The notes beneath the pieces are model-generated. The model searched no databases and had not been told where the DNA came from. It was given only the letters and a program-made list of their open reading frames with translations. A stretch of 64,000 bases of DNA from Chrysophaeum taylorii (lineage: Eukaryota; Sar; Pelagophyceae; Pelagomonadales; Pelagomonadaceae): positions 62,001-126,000 of the forward strand of contig JAQMWT010000356.1 in assembly GCA_029834535.1 (NCBI GenBank). Reading direction: 5' to 3'. Shown in pieces: positions 53,271 through 64,000 of the stretch (positions are counted from its first letter, which is position 1; every line of letters begins with the position of its first letter). The position numbers and the translations under genes are program-made.

Positions 53271-54333
53271 TTAGTTGTCGTATGTGATAGTCGGGTAGAT
53301 GTCCGGGATGAGGGCGCTGGTCTGGGCGGGGTCGAGTGGGCCCGTGTAGTTAATGGCGTCGTAGTCGTAGGTGATGATGCGCACGAGAATGAGGGGAAAC
53401 TCGTTGTCGTCGGCCCATCGGATTGTGTTATTGGAAACTGGTCCGGTGTAAGAAGCGCTAGCCGCGGTGAGGACGTAGGAACCGTCCGGCTGGATGAAAT
53501 CGTAGAAGGGCAGCGCGTCTTCGGTAGCCGTGGTGTTCTGGTTGACGGCGATGAAATCGAAGAAGGGCCGAACGCCGGTAATGTTGAAGGTGCCCGTGAT
53601 GGTGGCGACCTGGCCGGAGCCGACAATGGAGAAGAGGTAGACATGGGACGGGTCGGAGAAGAGGGAGCTGGTGTCGCCGGGCAGCGCAAATTGAGTGGGC
53701 TCGGCCGAGGTCACGGTCGCGCTGGAGGCGGCGATAATGTCCTGGATAAAACCCTCGAGAAAGCGGGAGAGGATTGTGCGGAGTGTCGTCGAGAGGGGCG
53801 GGACGGCGGCGGATGTGAACTCTTCTATCTTCGTCACGTTGAAGAGGTTTGCCTCGAGGTCGGCATCCGAAAAAATCTCGGGATCGAGATAGTAGCGCTG
53901 GAGGACGAATTTTATCGAGTCGTTGGTCGCGACGTCCATGGAGACCTGCGCCGAGTCAGGCCGGCGCCATTGGCCAGCGCACCTTGCCATTCGAACCCCG
54001 ATCGAAGATGGGCGGTATCGACGGATCCGCGTTGCCGTTCTCGTCGTACGCTATCAAGTTGACCTGGTAAACGCCCTCGCCGCTCGGGAACGTGCCCTCG
54101 AAGACGTATCGGCTGTTCTTGGGCACCAACGTCACGAAGTACGATGCGATGCTCGATGGGTAAGCGACGTTCAATATGTCGCGCGCAGGATCCGCATAAT
54201 CAAACTCGGACAATACGATCCACGACCGTGCAAAACAGGCTTCGAGCAGCTCGCCGCGCGCCGCCTCGAGAATCTGATCCGCTAACTTTGCTCGCACGCC
54301 CGCCAAGGCGAGAAACGCAACAACCGATTTCAT
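53271..54333 (-). CDS. Secreted glycoprotein of unknown family, two exons with a 37-nt intron
   Basis: Exon 1 is 54333-53983 (signal MKSVVAFLALAGVRA, then RYVFEGTFPSGEGVYQVNL), exon 2 is 53945-53271. Between them a 37-nt intron (53982-53946) begins GTGCGC and ends GCAG; it is phase 0 and joins ...GSNGK to VSMDVATNDS..., 341 residues in total. Exon 2 has several N-glycosylation sequons (NTTA, NNTI, NYTG) and strands typical of a beta-rich extracellular protein (FSIVGSGQVATITGTFNITG). I recognise no family. A second copy of exon 2 is at 62748-63416. The neighbouring gypsy-type element starts 1.17 kb upstream. Confidence 0.7.
53946..53982 (-). other. 37-nt GT-AG intron
   Basis: Without it the two halves of the secreted-protein gene lie in different frames; with it they join in phase 0. 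Confidence 0.7.
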
Positions 54334-55502
54334 CGCGTTGTTCGGCTTCTTTTTTCTTACTTCTTACAGGATCTGCCCCGTGCTTCTCATTGGGAAATGT
54401 TTTGCGTGTTTGTCTGTCTGTTTGTTTTTAAATTTTTAAAAGGTCGGCTGCTAAGAGGGGGGTGTGTGTTTATTAGTCTGTCTGTTTGTTTTTAATAAAG
54501 GTCGACTGCTAAGAGCGGGGGGGTGGTGCATGAAAGGATGTGTGTGGTTTTGTGGGGTAGGAGGGATGGGCGTAGATAGGTATGCGGGACCTAGTCGGGG
54601 TCATCGCCGAGTCGTGGGGCAGGCGAAGAGAGGACGGGCCCCGCCCGTATGTCGTACGCATGCTGCCGCCGGACGTATGTGCGACGAAGGGTTTGTTTTA
54701 TTAGGGCCGGCGGGGTAGGGCCTTGAAGTTTTGAGCTAACGCGTCAGTCATGAATGGCAAGGCTAGGCACGTCCGCTGGCGCAAGAATGGTGCTTAGCGG
54801 ACAAATACCCCCTGCTCTGATCTCCCGCTCTCATCGTCACATGTATAGAATTCTTTACAAAACAAATCACTTTTCTTGTGGATTTCTCGAAAGTAGGTCA
54901 TGTAACTAACTCCGCCTTCTTATTCCACTCAGCCACATGTACTCTCATAATTTTTTGCGACGAAATCCGCCCGCCATGTCGCCGCGGCGATACATCGCAT
55001 AGTAGTTCTTTGATCCTGCAGTTGATGGCACCGAGCTCAGCTACACATTCGGTCCCACACCCTCGGTATGTCTCAAAACAGAACGCAACTGGACGCCAGC
55101 CAGCCTGGAAGAATCGATGTTTTGAGGAGGCCGGTATTCTCCTCTCGCAAGAATTGATGCACCGCTTCGCAACCACTAAGCGCGCGCGTTTGCTGTCGGA
55201 AACTCCGTCGAAATAGTAATTTGAATGGAGCTCCGCGCACAGCTTTTTTTGTCTGAAAGTCATCGTCTGGAATACGAGGGCGCTTGTGCTGCCAATCGGG
55301 AGCAACAGCACACTCTGCTGAGCTGTGTGTTAAAAGCAGCGGACACGAAGACGCGCATCAAACACGCAGACGATCCATAGACGTAGTAGTATAAATATGT
55401 ATATATGCTGGCGGCGTCCAACACGCTTAACCCGGGGGCCGACACGCGGTCAGCCTCCCTTGTTAAAGTCATTAACACCACGCTCGTGTTCCTTCTGTGC
55501 GC
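54334..55502. other. Intergenic, no gene; contains small duplications
   Basis: A ~50-bp unit (gtctgtctgtttgtttttaa ... ctgctaagag) occurs at about 54412-54461 and again at 54477-54519. 55103-55160 resembles 53106-53195 (agcctggaa ... ttttgaggag ... gaattga). No supported coding frame. Confidence 0.5.
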
Positions 55503-55833
55503 TGTAGTGGTTTTCTCAGATACCCGCCCCTCTTGGCCGGGCCAGAGGCCTCAACAACCCTCTCTCCCAACCCGAACCGCGGGTGAAACCACCACACGCC
55601 CGATCTCATCGTAAACACTCACGCCATCTCAAAATCGGACAATAAAATTGAGGGTAATAACAAGAAGACAGCAAGAAAGCAATATAAAAGCCTGGTACAT
55701 TGGGTTCAGTGGAAGCGCAGGTGAGGGTGTCAAGGTGACACCCCCCCCATAATCGCAAGGTCAGTGCCAGGGCAACAATCAGGGTGAGTGATGTGGCAGG
55801 CAGGCAAGTGGGGGGATGGGCGTTACTGCCACA
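55503..55833 (-). repeat. 3' LTR of the gypsy-type element
   Basis: 331 bp; about 93% identical by eye to 62311-62642, with a run of C at about 55740. Confidence 0.9.
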
Positions 55834-58800
55834 GGAGCCATCTACTTGAGATGAAGTCGTCCTCGACTTCAAGAGTGACGAAGGTCACGCTCACGAATGG
55901 TACGATAAGCTCGGTCAGCTACATCAGCAGGAACTTTGTTGCTGTGGAGGGCCGAAGTTACTGACGAGGACATCGATTTCATCCGGGCGAAAATCAGTCA
56001 CACTGGGTTCACAGCCTTCCATGTTTGGTCGTAGGCGTGTGAAGCTACCTCCGTCAGGGTCCTTGTATTCTGGTCTTAAGCGTCGCTCGGCCAGGGGCTT
56101 ATTAGTAGGATCAAAAACACGAGGATCATCGATCGCGCGGTCCCAAATCGGTATAGCAGGGAAGCGTAACTGTATCATTGTCGTGATCATATTCTTCATA
56201 GACTTCGGCAACGTAGATACGCTTCTTCCACGCGTTGGATCGTCCTTTAACCCTGAAAATCACGAACTTGCCATCTTTGAAACGGTCGCGGTCTGAAGGT
56301 AAATGCAGAGGGGCTGAAGAAGTGTCGATGGTTGGCACTTTCAAAGGCACAATCTGTTGTACAGATACTACAACCGACCCAGAATCACCGTCGTTGACGT
56401 CCTGAATTTCGTAAACGACGGGAGAGATCCTTCTGGTAACTATGTAAGGCCCGCGCCAAATGGGCCGTAGCTTGTGGCGCGTCTTAGGCACGAAACGCAG
56501 AACATAATCACCTGAGGGAAACTGAATGTCAATTTGGTGGGCATCATAGTTGAGTTTTTGGCTCTCCTGTGCCTTTTGGTGAGATCGTGTAACGAGTCGA
56601 CTATAAAATTCAAGCTTGTTCTTAAAGTCCATCAAAATCTGCTGACGCGATTGCGGTAGATCACGCTGTACACTCAAAAGATTGTAATCGGGTGGTAACA
56701 GGGGTTGTTTGCCGGTACGCATCATGAAAGGTGAAATCTTCGTTCCCGGAATGTACATTCTATTGTACATGAATGCAACATATGGGAGGAAATTCGACCA
56801 ATCTGGCTGACGCTGTTCATCGATCGCAGCCCTCAAGAAGGCTTTGATAAATCGGTTGACACGTTCAGTGTGGTTACTCTGAGGGTGATACGGAAGGGTA
56901 GTACGATAACGTACGTTGAATTGACGAACAAATGTGCGAAATAACCTGTTCGCGAACTCATTTCCATTATCCGTGACAATGCACCGTGGGAGACACCCCT
57001 CAAGTAAAATCTTGTCCACAAACACGTTCAAAATTGAATAATCATGCTTGGTGTTGATCAGAGCCAATTTCAAGAAATGCGACGCTGCATCGTACATCGC
57101 AAGTATGTACGTGTACAAGTCAGCACCTCGCAGAGGTCCAATCAGATCCATACCTAGGACATAACAATCTCCGACGCGATTCGGTTGACAGAGCAAGCCA
57201 TGACGCTTATGCATGGTGGATCGAATTTTCTGGCTGCAAATAATGCAAGCATTGACGACCTCATTAACTGACGATGAGACGTTTGGCTGCCAATACCGTT
57301 CTAAAATTTGACTCGCTGTGGAGTCTCGTCCTACATGGCCTCCGAACAATCCTCGGTGATACATGGCGATTACACGCTTTCGCATCGACTGAGGGACCAC
57401 AATAAGACGTTGAGAATCCAAATCATCGACCTTATCAACTTCATACTGTACGGATGACTGCTCGTCTTGATCTTTCTGTTCAGAATCGAGATTTCGTCCG
57501 ATTCGCTTGCATGTGTCATCTTCAGCTTGTTTTTTCGCTATCGCATCGAGAGTGATCTCATCCTCAGCTTGATCCGCAAAAGGAAGACGTTCGACGGAGT
57601 CAACTGGCTCAGACTCGTACGAGAATTAAGGCGGTTGTACGTTCTGTCGCGTACTAACTGCTGCCATAGCTGCGGTGGGTCCGCTGTCCGTCGGTATAGG
57701 CATCGTCACCGAAGAGAAGGTGAAGCAGGCTGTGTCAGGTACATCGGTGGGGATTTCCTCGAAGATCAAATAAACTTCATTGATCGGTTCCCCGTCTTCG
57801 TCTTTCTCGATCAACTTGTCGATAGGGTTGCGCGACAGACAATCCGGGATGCGCATGCCAGGGGAATTTCCAGGCTTGTATCCGAGCTCCCGGTCGGACG
57901 CAGCAAGCCGCATAGCCCATCGCGCTAATTGTCCAGACGTATGGTTTGAATCCCGAAGAAATATCAAATTACGATGATCCGTCTCTAATTTCGTCTGATG
58001 TCTTTCGATATAAAATCGGAAATTCTCAAGAGCGGAGAGTACTGCGAGGAGTTCCAAGCGCCGAGGATCATACTTCCTCGTCGATTTAGGCACGGTTCGA
58101 CTCCAGTACTCATTAACTCTCTCTTCTATTCTTTCTCTTCCATAGTCGTCAACGACTGGTACCTTTTGAAATAGGTAAGCACCCAACCCATGCGCGGAAG
58201 CATCAGTTCGAATGTAGAAAGGCAACGAGTAATCAGGTTGGTAGACATCCTTCGAAGTGACAATAGCCTCGATGATGGCATCCCAAGCTCCCTGACACTC
58301 TTTCGTCCATTCGAATTTACGTCCGGCAACGTCAGTTGTCCTAATGGCTCTGCAACCTTCGCAAAATTCCTTACATAACGACGGCAAAAACTCCCCATTC
58401 CAAGGAAAGACCGCACTTGCTTCTTAGGGTCAGCATCCGACAAAGTGCCGGGAATTGGCATGTGTCTGATGGCTTCTAAAGATCTCGGTGATGGAAGCAG
58501 TCCGTTCGGGGTGGACAAATGACCCAAAAACTCAATGACTTCTTGCATGAAGTGTATCTTCTTGATCTTGGCGCTGTACCCTTTCAAGGCGAGATGGGGA
58601 AGAACTTGCACAAGGCACTGCAAGTGATTCTTTGTATCCGCGTGACCGGCGAGAGTATCGTCGATATATGCCACGAGATCACGATATAGCCATTTCGACT
58701 AGTCAGTGTTTAACTGCTTACAAAACAAACTTCCGGCTGGTTTGACTCCCAAAGGTAGACGCATGTGGCTGTACGCTCCCAGAGGACTAGTGAAGGTTAC

Positions 58801-59743
58801 CACATCTTGTGCATCTAGCGACAATCGTAAATTGAGATAGCCCCAACGAATATCCAAGCTGGAACGACAGAACTTGTCGATGAGAAACATCAACGCGTCC
58901 GCCATGCTCACACTCGGCCAGCTATCATGCTTGAGCAATGCATTGAGGCGCCGCAGGTCGACAGCTGCCCTAAAACATTGGAAGTGCCAGGTTCAGCACC
59001 TTTCTTAGGCAACATCAAAATAGGGAAACCGCATGGAGAATTCGCGGGACGAATAACTCCGTCTCGGGTCCATTCTTCAATCTGCATCCGCAGGCATTCA
59101 ATCTTCTCTTTCGACAACCGATATGGCGAGAGTTTGACTGGAGTCGGGTTCTCTTCTTTGAACCGGAGCGTCACTTCAGGTGAATCAACAGGTCTCATCA
59201 CATCATCAAAAAATGCCCACGAATACGAAATTGGATGCTTCATCATCAGCTTCTCGTCATCATCTAAAGCAGGGTGCTCTGTAATACCCAACTCAGCCAT
59301 CACCTCTTCGACCTGCGCGACGGTCGGAGGGATGACCTGCATGCTCTCCTGATCCGCAAAATGAGGAGGCATCACCGGTAAAGGTTGGCCATGTTCGTCG
59401 TGAGGCGCGTCCGCCCACGGAACGTCGTACTTATTGAAATACGCAGGTCGCTCCTTCGCGGTGCATTCTTCTTCAGCAGTTGCGGAGGGCTGGTTGTTGG
59501 TTTGGTTGCTCTGCATAACAGCAGTAGCGACGGTGCCCCCTGCAAAAGATTGAGCCGTCCCAGGCGATGTAACCAAAGGTGGTGGTGGGGTGGTGGTGGC
59601 AGCAGCTGATGGTGCAGGACTCGCAGGAGAGTAGAGTTCATCGGGCGAAATCCATGACACACTTCGAGTGGCAGGGTCGAGCGTTGGAATGCGCGACTCG
59701 ACAGCAAAGAGCGAAAACCGTAGAATACGGTGATCAGGTTGTG

Positions 59744-61258
59744 CTATCGTAGTCGTCGCAATATTCCGCAACTTACGAAATTTCGAAGTGAAGGATCAAA
59801 CGAATTGTGCACTGCTAGCGCGATCCGCGCCATAGTCGCGGGTGGCACTATACTGCCAAGCATCTTCATAGTTGCTGTCTCCGAGACTTTCTCACCACAT
59901 TGCCACGTAGCAGGAACGGTCATAATTTCCTGGTGCATCTGCAACGTGAGTGGACGGGTGTTCGAGAAGTGAGGTCCCATTTGTAGTTTATTGCGCGTCA
60001 CCGTGAAGGCAGGGCCGATAGCCGAGCGCGTAGATGAAAAACTGTTCACTAGAATGAGCGGGTGACCACCCGTAAATCCCAACGCTGGCCCAAAACGGTT
60101 CCGTAAATTCGGTGGTACACGCGATAATAACGGCAGTTCCAAGCGAACATTGCAAGCAAGTAGGCGCGTGCGCGAGCACAGCAATTCTGGTGTAATACTA
60201 TAAAAATCGACAATGCGCGGCACATAAAATTTGTGATGCACAAAAGGGATCACTGATGGTTCCTGCTCGAGCGTCCATCGTCCAATTACATAAGGTGCGT
60301 TGCGGAAATGACGCAGGATCCAAGAAGTAATAGTAGCGCCCTTGCGTGCGTCCCTGTAGTGCAAATTGGCAGTCGAACCATAGATACACGGAGGACTTGC
60401 GTGAAAATAAGAATGCTTCCAAAATTCTGAATGTAAATACGACAACACCAAGTCGTATGTACGACGATGAGATTTCCCCAACTCGTGCAAAACATAGGGA
60501 ATCTTAGGAAAATTGAGCGCAAAGGTGGCTCGGGCTTGTGGACAAGCATCCAAAGCCAAGACAATGCGAAATGAAGTGGTGTAAAGTTCATTGCATCGCC
60601 GGATACCCAACGTTGATCCTCCAGAGCCAGCAAAAGAGACGAAGACAAAGATGTAGGTGATGGGTATCCAAACCAAGGAGGCATGCTTAGATAGGAGCTC
60701 CTTAGCAGTCGCCTCCATCTCCATTTCTGGTGTTTTTTTTTTTACTTCTTCATCTGGAGGTGGCTCAGGAGGAGGTCTATCACTCAAGACATCCTCCTCG
60801 ACTTCATTCTCGTCAACAGCAGCCATGAAAGTCGCATGACAAACGTCCTCAGTGGCTTCTAGCTGCATGTTGACAAATCCTTCTTGTGGCATGATCTCGC
60901 CTTCCACCTTACGCTGCAACTGCATAAACCACGCGTTAACCTCATCCTGGGTCTTGGTGATTTGCCCGGTGAGAGGCGAAAACGTGATACGAGTCATACC
61001 AGCAGCTCCCTTCTTGATCTGAAGTATCTCTTCTTCGTCACGAGGATGTGCCGAACAAGGTTCAGTATGATGCTGCGGGGTAGGCTCCGGTCGACTTCGC
61101 GGTGGCTGATCATCGGTTAGCGCCGATACAGCGTCATCCTCTTCGGGCGAAACACGCGTGGCATCCGGAGAGGTTGGCCGTGCCTCTCGAGCATGCGCCC
61201 GCGTGGATTCCTCCACCATTCGTCGGAGTCGGTCGATGTCGATCCGCTGCTGCTCCAC
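59744..61258 (-). CDS. Cytosine-C5 DNA methyltransferase frame inside the gypsy-type element
   Basis: 504 codons. Residues 1-200: coiled, charged segment (MEQQRIDIDRLRRMVEEST), Pro/Glu-rich linker, then FVFVSF. From about 203 to 490 the C5-methyltransferase motifs occur in order: motif I FAGSGGSTLG (208-218, S-adenosylmethionine loop); LALDACPQARATFALNFP (acidic residue and following helix as in motif II/III); motif IV ASPPC with the catalytic-type Cys (287-291); a motif VI-like stretch WTLEQEPSV; motif VIII-like CSRTRLLACN; motif IX-like LTLQMHQEIMTVPATW; and motif X LGSIVPPATMARIA. Position before the polymerase makes it a part of the element rather than a host gene. Such captures are known in a few eukaryotic lineages; element-borne C5 methyltransferases are thought to methylate the element's own DNA. 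Confidence 0.85.
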   Translation of the reverse strand: MEQQRIDIDRLRRMVEESTRAHAREARPTSPDATRVSPEEDDAVSALTDDQPPRSRPEPTPQHHTEPCSAHPRDEEEILQIKKGAAGMTRITFSPLTGQITKTQDEVNAWFMQLQRKVEGEIMPQEGFVNMQLEATEDVCHATFMAAVDENEVEEDVLSDRPPPEPPPDEEVKKKTPEMEMEATAKELLSKHASLVWIPITYIFVFVSFAGSGGSTLGIRRCNELYTTSFRIVLALDACPQARATFALNFPKIPYVLHELGKSHRRTYDLVLSYLHSEFWKHSYFHASPPCIYGSTANLHYRDARKGATITSWILRHFRNAPYVIGRWTLEQEPSVIPFVHHKFYVPRIVDFYSITPELLCSRTRLLACNVRLELPLLSRVPPNLRNRFGPALGFTGGHPLILVNSFSSTRSAIGPAFTVTRNKLQMGPHFSNTRPLTLQMHQEIMTVPATWQCGEKVSETATMKMLGSIVPPATMARIALAVHNSFDPSLRNFVSCGILRRLR

Positions 61259-62310
61259 TTCTGAGCGTTGTTGCTGCGCGTCGCGGCGGGCGCGCTCTAT
61301 TTCACGTAGGACTTGCTCGATCTATTTCACGTAGGACTTGCTCGATCTGCGACTGGTACATCTCGAATCGTTCGTTGATGGTCTGCAGAATCTCGGGGTC
61401 GGTATCAAATCGACGATCTGTCGCAGCTCTCGTATTCGCGGATGGTGGCCTAGGAGGTGCACTCTCCTCTGGAGCACGCACCGCAGTAGAAAATCCAGGT
61501 CCGCTCGAAATGACTCCGTAGCATTCATCGCACGTTCGTAGGGTCGCGCGTACGGGAACGTCGGCTCACCCGGTCTTGAGGTTGCGTCTGGCGCAACCGT
61601 AGCTCCCCCTTCGCCGGCGCGTGGATCCGGAAGGATGACCACGCTTGGGGGGCTGTCGAGGCTATCAGATGATCTTGCCTCTCTTCTGATGCCGCTTTCC
61701 TCGGCTTCCGGCCGTTAAAAGGGCGTGCTGAACGGTGTTCTTCCAATGGACGAAAAATGGAGTCTCTGCACTGAATCGTTGCAGACGCTCCTGTGCGTCC
61801 CGAAACCACTGCGGTCGTTCTGTCATTGGCCCTTCTACCATGACCGCGCTTTGCCCGGATAATAGGATTAATCCGAACGCTGACAGCTCGCTTGTTGTAC
61901 TCTTTCCGTCAGACGACAAGATGCCGGCAGCCGTCTGACTGCGCGCCGTACCGGTGCGCTGGACTCACGAAGTTTTTGCCTTGCGCGTGAAGGCTATGGA
62001 CGGCCTTCCCGGTGCTGTCGCTCGCCGTCAGGGAGGTGGTCTGCCTCGCGCGAGCTAGGTTAGGTCTTACTCTTTCTTTGCCTGGTTAGGTCTTACGATG
62101 TTTTGCCTGGTTGAGTCGTAGTGACTCCGCTCCCCGTTCGATCCGAATCACGTAAAATGAACCCTGCAGCGGTACCCGTGATCCCCTGGATCTTCACCCT
62201 CAAATGCGTCGGCTTCGCACTCACTCGACCGTTACGAACCGACTCGCCGCCGAAAAACAGGAGATCGATAGTCCGGGAGTTGGACTATCGATTCCCGTTT
62301 ATGAGACCAC

Positions 62311-62642
62311 TGTAGCGGTTTTCTCAGATACCCGCCCCTCTTGGCCGGGCCAGAGGCCTCAACAACCCTCTCTCCCAACCCGCACCGCGGGTGAAACCAC
62401 CACACGCCCGATCTCAGCGTAAACACTCACGCCATCTCAAAATCGGACAATCAAAATGAGGGTAATAACAACAAGAAGACAGCAAGAAAGCAATACAAAT
62501 GCCTTGTACATTGGGTTCAGTGCAAGCGCAGGTAAGGGTGTCAATGCGACACCCCCCCCATAATCGCAAGATCAGCGCCAGGTCAACAACCAGGTAAGTC
62601 AGGTGGCAGGAGGCAAGTGGGGGGATGGGCGTTACTGCCACA
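62311..62642 (-). repeat. 5' LTR of the gypsy-type element
   Basis: 332 bp, partner of 55503-55833; the internal region begins at its left side with gTGGTCTCATAAACGGG on the minus strand. Confidence 0.9.
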
Positions 62643-62747
62643 GCACCTGCAGGCACCTCGCCTCTCCGTAAATCTAAAGGGCAGCAGCATAAGTCCGAGC
62701 GCGCGGGCGGGCGGGCGGCTTATGGTAGTGACGAAAATGGAGGGAAC
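62643..62747. other. Junction between gypsy LTR and duplicated host segment
   Basis: 105 bp including a GGGC run (about 62703-62715); similarity to the 3' flank of the secreted-protein gene begins near 62700 (gcgcg...ggctt..atggtagtgac). Confidence 0.4.
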
Positions 62748-63416
62748 TTAGTTGCCGTATGTGATAGTCGGGTAGATGTCCGGGATGAGGGCGCTGGTCT
62801 GGGCGGGGTCGAGTGGGCCCGTGTAGTTAATGGCGTCGTAGTCGTAGGTGACGATGCGCACGAGAATGAGGGGAAACTGGTTGTCGTTGGCCCATCGGAT
62901 TGTGTTGTTGGAAACTGGCCCGGTGTAAGAAGCGCTAGCCGCGGTTAGGACGTAGGAACCGTCCGGCTGGATGAAATCGTAGAAGGGCAGCGCGTCTTCG
63001 GTAGCCGTGGTGTTCTGGTTGACGGCGATGAAATCGAAGAAGGGCCGAACGCCGGTAATATTGAAGGTGCCCGTGATGGTGGCGACCTGGCCGGAGCCGA
63101 CAATGGAGAAGAGGTAGACATGGGACGGGTCGGAGAAGAGGGAGCTGGTGTCGCCGGGCAGCGCAAATTGAGTGGGCTCGGCCGAGGTCACGGTCGCGCT
63201 GGAGGCGGCGATAATGTCCTGAAAAAAAACCTCGACACGGTGGGAGAGGATTGTGCGGAGTGTCGTCGAGAGGGGCGGGACGGCGAAGGATAAGAACTTA
63301 TACTTCTTCGTCACTTTGAAGAGGTTTGCTTCGAGGTCAGAATCCGAAAAAATCTTGGGATCGAGATAGTAGCGCTGGAGGACGAATTTGATCGAGTCGT
63401 TGGTCGCGACGTCCAT
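62748..63416 (-). pseudogene. Truncated duplicate of the secreted-protein gene (exon 2 only)
   Basis: 222 codons from MDVATNDSIKF, more than 90% alike to exon 2 at 53271-53945, including stop and 3' flank. The match ends at the ATG codon, 6 bp inside the exon 2 start; exon 1, the signal peptide and the intron are absent, so the product could not enter the secretory pathway. Changes cluster near the new N-terminus (for example KYKFLS in place of IEEFTS). The frame remains open, so the duplication is recent or retains some use. Confidence 0.75.
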
Positions 63417-63418
63417 TT

Positions 63419-64000
63419 GTCGTCGTCGCAGAAAACGGCGGCTTGTCTCGCACCCTGGACGGGAAGTCCCTGGACGAGGCTCTGAGCATCGTCGCGGCGG
63501 CCCACGTCCTCAAAAAGGCTGGACCCGGACATCAATCGCCCACGTTCTACACGTGCAGCTGCCCCAAATTCTGGCACTATTACAAGTGCAAGCACGTTCT
63601 CGCTCTCACAATCCGCCTCAAGCACGCTCAAGTCTCAGAAAACACAATTATCCTGCCCTTCCGCAAGCGCGGCCGTGGTCGCGGTGCCAAAGCGCACGGC
63701 GGAGAGGCGTTGAGCGCGAAGCCTGCTCGACAGCGGCCGCGGCCGCGGCCGCAACTAAGCGCGCTGCCATTCCAGGCTCGGCTGCCACCCCACCCCACAC
63801 CACACCACCCCACCCCACCCCACACCACACCACACCACACCACCCCACACCACACCACACCACACCACACCACACCACACCACACCACACCACACGACCT
63901 CTGTGCGCGTGCCCACACACCACACCAAAACCTTCAAGCACCCGCACCGCCACCACTGTGCGCGTCCCAATTTCTAGAGCGGTTTCAAGCGAGTCAGGGC
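63419..64000 (+). CDS. Partial SWIM zinc-finger frame (incomplete at both ends)
   Basis: Open from the duplication junction to the window end, no start codon seen and no stop. Early part reads SLDEALSIVAAAHVLKKAG followed by a SWIM zinc finger, YTCSCPKFWHYYKCKHVLAL (C-x-C...C-x-H). SWIM fingers occur at the C-terminal side of MULE transposases and in some host regulators. After a basic FRKRGRGRGAK segment the frame runs through a CCACA repeat encoding His/Thr/Pro, and ends in LCASQFLERFQASQG at the edge. The 5' part of this gene was presumably replaced by the duplicated secreted-gene segment. Confidence 0.5.
63783..63897 (+). repeat. CCACA/CCCCA pentamer tandem repeat
   Basis: More than 20 pentamer units; in the plus frame gives His/Thr/Pro repeats, on the minus strand CGVVW repeats. 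Strong strand asymmetry. Confidence 0.9.

Follow-up and report, generated by a model that had tools for sequence, protein, structure and literature searches.

C5-cytosine methyltransferases within the Pol region of Gypsy and Copia retroelements in one algal genome

Retrotransposons are usually silenced by DNA methylation, and a retroelement that keeps a methyltransferase of its own under selection presents a paradox, which is reported for few lineages. The locus considered here raises the question of whether its C5-cytosine methyltransferase (MTase) belongs to such an element or to the host. It lies in the window, i.e. the whole 64,000-nucleotide stretch that was analysed (C356:62001-126000, from a genome of 70.8 Mb in 697 contigs), and comprises the following features, given in the direction of the element.

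Positions 62310-62643, minus strand: 5' LTR, 334 bp, aligned to the 3' LTR, with TG...CA ends
Positions 62295-62309, minus strand: stretch resembling a primer-binding site, recognized by position, beginning with TGG immediately past the LTR
Positions 60894-60908, minus strand: deletion junction, 15 bp common to both sides; the remainder of gag is absent here, as is the protease region
Positions 59744-61258, minus strand: 504-aa ORF, an N-terminal remnant of gag fused to a C5-MTase (ORF list, Pfam, comparison with other copies)
Positions 59777-60664, minus strand: C5-MTase domain, residues 199-494 (PF00145, motif counts, predicted fold)
Positions 60386-60388, minus strand: codon of the catalytic Cys of the C5-MTase
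Positions 58400-59255 (approximate boundaries), minus strand: reverse transcriptase (RT), broken by a stop and frame changes
Positions 57626-58387, minus strand: RNase H frame (PF17917, 5.4e-23)
Positions 56126-57421, minus strand: integrase frame with H2C2, rve and C-terminal domain (PF17921, 5.7e-14; PF00665, 3.9e-7, 30.7 bits, below the cut-off of 32.6)
Positions 55502-55834, minus strand: 3' LTR, 333 bp, aligned to the 5' LTR, with TG...CA ends

According to their alignment, the LTRs are direct repeats with 312 identical and 19 different positions in 331 aligned columns (K2P 0.060), and another copy, L062, ends in a 3' LTR (L062:7633-7961) that is 85% identical to the 5' LTR of the window. 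The sequences flanking the element, compared as a target-site duplication, are GTGC and GCGC (1 mismatch in 4). The longest stop-free stretch on the element strand has 525 codons, against a maximum of 269 in 200 two-base-block shuffles. As for RT, RVT_1 matches only its end part with 23.7 bits (below the cut-off of 29.6); the relatives L062 and L064 have 49.1 and 47.7 bits, respectively. The LTR alignment and Pfam matches thus bear out the initial annotation, which had placed the MTase between two LTRs and upstream of RT, RNase H, and integrase, although RT is present in a broken form. Its further placement of the enzyme between gag-like and pol regions holds in part: a gag remnant does precede the MTase, but in less damaged copies the enzyme lies within Pol, between protease and RT. 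Regarding identity and architecture, we conclude with high confidence that the window element is a degenerate, internally deleted Ty3/Gypsy copy from a family whose Pol has a fixed C5-MTase between protease and RT.

Within the window, ARAGORN (bacterial code) reports no tRNA, and no Rfam family reaches its gathering score. On either side of the element (53271-53570 and 62748-63047), 300 bp belonging to a ~220-aa ORF occur as direct repeats of 98% identity; these may reflect duplication of a host gene or of the region surrounding the inserted element. Positions 63648-63956 contain a long CCCCAC/CACCACA-like simple repeat with low-complexity ORFs on both strands.

The 504-aa ORF is matched by PF00145 (7.5e-8, 32.6 bits, above the cut-off of 22) and by phrog_116, a phage DNA methyltransferase family (4.5e-9), so the enzyme class proposed by the initial annotation stands in the profile search. 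As also proposed there, the C5-MTase motifs follow one another in a single open frame (I at residue 209, IV, SPPC, at 288, VIII-like SRTR at 362, IX at 434, and X at 467), and the spacing between VIII and IX is indeed compact, with ~70 residues. The names of these motifs and the roles of the Cys, Glu, and RxR residues belong to general knowledge of C5-MTases, in which the Pro-Cys of motif IV provides the nucleophile and motif VI normally contains Glu-Asn (ENV/ENP). In the window enzyme, motif VI is EQEP in place of ENV/ENP. The structure predicted from the copies, 2 metagenome relatives, the sequence of a second Gypsy family (A', below), and 3 remote C5-MTases has a C5-MTase fold across the entire domain. 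Prediction from close copies alone, however, yields no usable fold (pLDDT 27), which counts against the explanation that we prefer, a C5-MTase fixed in the Pol of the element that would act on the element's cDNA. The nearest fold matches include DNMT2, with the folds of several classes tied. By sequence, neither the window ORF nor A1 matches a PDB chain, whatever its class.

The fusion of gag and MTase in the window is explained by comparison with the less damaged copies L062 and L065, which have ~2.6 kb extra at the window's junction. Gag accounts for just ~115 residues at the N-terminus of the ORF, and the deletion joins the gag start in frame to the MTase part. Among the 30 loci L001-L030, 8, including the window itself (L001), have this junction within a match of 347-350 nt, a value that is no frequency because the window ORF matches these loci best. 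The shortened element kept its MTase and multiplied, presumably relying on proteins supplied by complete copies.

As to the number of similar elements, a point raised by the initial annotation, the window ORF has at least 95 match rows at ~85 places in its own genome (85 of 1082 candidates scored), and such genome counts may include alternative haplotypes because some contigs look like mutual duplicates. In particular, the contig pairs C10/C297, C25/C521, and C6/C268 have matches at nearly equal coordinates, as if both haplotypes were assembled. Among the copies of this family (A), L064 contains protease, MTase, RT, RNase H, and integrase in one 1965-aa stretch that is open to the locus end (rve 29.4 bits, below cut-off; protease recognized by eye, not by Pfam). 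The Ty3/Gypsy order of protease, RT, RNase H, and integrase is thus found in one frame, and the direct LTRs are seen in the window copy. In L062, gag, protease, MTase, and RT share a single 1812-aa stretch with integrase in another frame (gag Pfam value 0.039, below cut-off; protease by eye).

The RT of family A accounts for 73 rows among the matches listed, with 72-100% identity. An MTase lies upstream on the same strand in 55 of these (35, plus 20 from a second MTase listing) at a distance of 499-1889 bp, the commonest value among the 35 rows of the first listing being 618 bp. The remaining 18 listed RT rows have no listed MTase upstream, which counts against the preferred explanation; they may be truncated, or their MTases may be unscored. 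A host MTase gene that an element merely hit, which the window copy taken alone would permit, is rejected as having a negligible chance of being correct, given the number of listed places, the pairing with RT, and the frames shared with RT and integrase.

Selection keeps the MTase domain in family A. Comparison of 38 near with 5 far copies (190 pairs, Nei-Gojobori) gives a median Ka of 0.107, Ks of 1.56, and ratio of 0.070 (range 0.05-0.11). Ratios rise within the near clade (median 0.23 at a Ks of 0.11), which is what copies in decay should show. Between L062 and L064 the ratios are rough, because most Ks values exceed 1, and the telling point is the MTase (0.059) versus the flanking linkers: 0.19 for the protease-MTase linker, 0.31 for the pre-MTase part, and 0.39 for the MTase-RT linker. 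Protease, RT, RNase H, and integrase have 0.086, 0.025, 0.11, and 0.048, respectively, and gag Ks is saturated. Among 44 distinct copies, the motif IV Cys is present in 44, the motif VI Glu in 42, and both Arg of RxR in 44, with SPPC, EQEP, and SRTR found in 41, 40, and 41; a stop inside the MTase domain occurs in 13. The contention that the MTase is borne by a retroelement rather than being a lone host gene is supported by this purifying selection and by the recurrence of the domain beside the element's RT. Together with PF00145, these results add it to the known C5-MTases of retroelements, as initially annotated, and independent acquisition by this element is plausible.

The same numbers bear on whether the MTase could lack catalytic activity and be retained in Pol for nucleic-acid binding or for folding. 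Such a role would fit the Asn-to-Gln change of ENV in A and A', SPSC rather than SPPC in the metagenome ORF P0005, and the weak Pfam scores. The Cys, Glu, and RxR pair, however, are conserved in A, A', and remote C5-MTases, and the Ka/Ks of the MTase is near that of integrase in the L062-L064 comparison, so that we consider a dead enzyme highly improbable.

The second Gypsy family, A', was reached via RT matches of 65% identity, and L084 (C5:522001-530500) is the sole copy of it that was read. Its 2540-aa stretch has protease (by eye), MTase, RT, and RNase H in the same order as in A, with identities to L064 of 38%, 41%, 64%, and 73%, respectively; A' frames are very long, reaching 3067 aa for L084. 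Its MTase has at least 130 genome matches of 80-100% identity (130 of 1019 candidates scored). The motifs are FSGAGG (I), ASPPC (IV), and EQEA (VI). The A' MTase alone scores 19.5 bits with PF00145, below the cut-off of 22, which again weighs against the preferred explanation, and its identity therefore rests on A. The common domain order suggests a single MTase capture before the split of A and A'. The protease active-site motif, which is usually DSG/DTG, is unusual by eye in these elements (DGMA in Gypsy L064 and L084, DGGA in the Copia element L063).

Scanning the genome with PF00145 gives at least 57 matches (123 of 474 candidates scored). Of 30 that were examined, 28 belong to one family (B), 1 is DNMT2-like (L031), and 1 is DNMT5-like (L032); the remaining 27 coincide with listed places of the family B MTase, as compared by eye. 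The copy of B that was characterized is the following.

L063:399-8842 (contig C96): Ty1/Copia element with its own C5-MTase between protease and integrase

Its first frame is gag-like and has no match in Pfam. The next, of 1952 aa, contains LIDGGAS, which resembles a protease motif by eye, and then MTase (1.1e-7), integrase (rve at 0.0061 and 17.2 bits, below cut-off), and RVT_2 (1.6e-38). The order of protease, integrase, and RVT_2 is that of Ty1/Copia. The L063 MTase has at least 140 genome matches (132 of 629 candidates scored), and an MTase lies 3.2-4.2 kb upstream in 45 of the first 59 B RT rows (the best 59 of 153 matches). LPCQ and VEN are found in 28 of 28 distinct copies, nearly all of which were found via PF00145, which favours intact motifs, and Ka/Ks is 0.13 (75 pairs with Ks of at least 1). 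Similarity to bacterial C5-MTases is weak (best E 0.02). Profile-profile comparison of the A and B MTases reveals no relation, a weak test with both profiles shallow (Neff about 1.2-1.3).

It is fairly probable that Ty3/Gypsy and Ty1/Copia elements of one algal genome hold different C5-MTases in the same slot directly after protease, likely by independent captures, which selection has maintained across a few hundred copies and which serve as a convergent 'cDNA-marking' step. Although no relation between the Copia and Gypsy enzymes is detectable, they occupy the same slot and so constitute a repeated natural experiment on the use of an MTase to an LTR element. Three element families (two Gypsy and one Copia), some copies having long open frames, are present in a small 71 Mb genome.

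In the mechanism that we propose, the MTase, as a part of Pol, would be packaged with RT into the particle, as the slot after protease in both superfamilies suggests. It would then methylate cytosines of the new cDNA (or RNA:DNA hybrid) before integration, and the methylated copy could be marked as own, protected, or passed to host maintenance methylation. We give roughly even chances to element cDNA being the target.

If the cDNA is CpG-methylated and the mark is kept, CpG transitions should rise. For family A (538 alignments among L001-L030), C/T differences per site are 0.067 at CpG, 0.068 at CpT, 0.054 at CpC, and 0.045 at CpA; for Copia B they are 0.103 at CpG and 0.120 at CpT. Relative to other C sites, the CpG C/T rate is 1.22-fold in A and 1.20-fold in B. 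In A, however, transversions at CpG are raised 1.42-fold, which exceeds the C/T excess, so it is not specific to transitions. No clear CpG-methylation footprint is therefore seen between copies of A or B, which counts against the preferred explanation. The CpG observed/expected ratio is 1.02-1.10 in five Gypsy A stretches (TG/CA 1.09-1.16) and 1.05 in L063 (TG/CA 1.12), a slight CpG deficit compared with the window's first 53 kb (1.21 and 0.98). A', with 1.32 and 0.94, shows the opposite of CpG decay, which also counts against the preferred explanation. According to these data, the mark would be transient, in another context, or on RNA, or its decay would be well repaired.

The lack of a clear footprint also agrees with an enzyme acting on RNA, which, inside the particle, would introduce m5C into the primer tRNA or the genomic RNA of the element and so aid translation, packaging, or priming. 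DNMT2, one of the nearest fold matches, is RNA-associated according to PMC12344493 (section 5), and PMC5890265 proposes RNA as target for dinoflagellate LINE enzymes; we regard an RNA target as possible but rather unlikely. Somewhat less probable still is a weapon directed, by methylation, at rival elements, at DNA viruses that invade the cell, or at the chromatin of the host instead of at the element itself. It matches the high copy number and a general proposal for retrotransposon methylases (PMC6338049), but the natural place of an enzyme inside Pol would be the particle. Any target or role other than these, cDNA, and a dead enzyme appears improbable.

The same organism also encodes a DNMT5-type enzyme. 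The host gene L032 (C621:16962-20237) has MTase and SNF2 matches (SNF2 at C621:19899-20237) on one strand, with frames both of 2086 aa, and a RING-like Cys pattern by eye; section 5 of PMC12344493 gives MTase plus SNF2 as the layout of DNMT5.

Regarding relatives in other organisms, a single-sequence protein search finds none with E<=0.01 in 7705 candidates. Searched by profile, a set of 5.8 billion proteins yields as significant only the metagenome ORFs P0001 (7e-9 with the family A profile), P0004, and P0005; the second profile contained P0001 as a row, and P0004 and P0005 were found through P0001. P0001 and P0004 have a target-recognition stretch in common, motif VI contains ENVP in P0001 and P0005, and P0005 has SPSC in motif IV. 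The N-terminal stretch of P0005 resembles the Gypsy protease-MTase segment by eye, so P0005 may belong to an element of this kind from a different organism. Scans of viral contigs with A1, A2, A3, and P0001 and of prokaryote genomes with A3 confirm no relative.

Among the titles and abstracts found, a scope that excludes subscription papers and preprints, none mentions the Gypsy/Copia pair or this MTase type. Among the closest known systems is KnitGypsy-Dnmt3 of Klebsormidium nitens (PMC5890265), with a DNMT3 inside Gypsy Pol. Like family A, it has Ty3/Gypsy domains, a C5-MTase in Pol, several copies, and purifying selection (Ka/Ks < 0.2 there). In contrast, its enzyme is a DNMT3 and its repeats have a DIRS-like arrangement (figure legend), whereas family A has a much diverged type (EQE) and plain direct LTRs; as for DNMT3 kinship of the family A enzyme, no PDB chain is matched by sequence and several fold classes are tied. 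Section 5 of PMC12344493 names 'LTR Copia and DIRS' elements as carriers of DNMT3 with reference to PMC5890265, which describes Gypsy. The element labelled Copia there resembles B in its superfamily, but its enzyme is called DNMT3, while that of B is a PF00145 find with weak bacterial matches. DIRS adenine (Dam-like) methylases (PMC5890265) are likewise accessory methylases in a retroelement polyprotein, but represent an unrelated enzyme class. In Symbiodinium, the same source describes DNMTs in LINE (SymbioLINE-Dnmt) and DIRS (SymbioDIRS-Dnmt3) elements, the SymbioLINE enzymes being termed 'orphans' in the section of PMC12344493 cited above. As in the present elements, these are retroelement-borne C5-MTases with very many copies in an alga. 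SymbioDIRS, however, uses a tyrosine recombinase and SymbioLINE is a LINE, whereas the present elements are of the LTR/integrase type, and SymbioLINEs are CG-depleted (PMC5890265), while CpG observed/expected in the present elements is at least 1.
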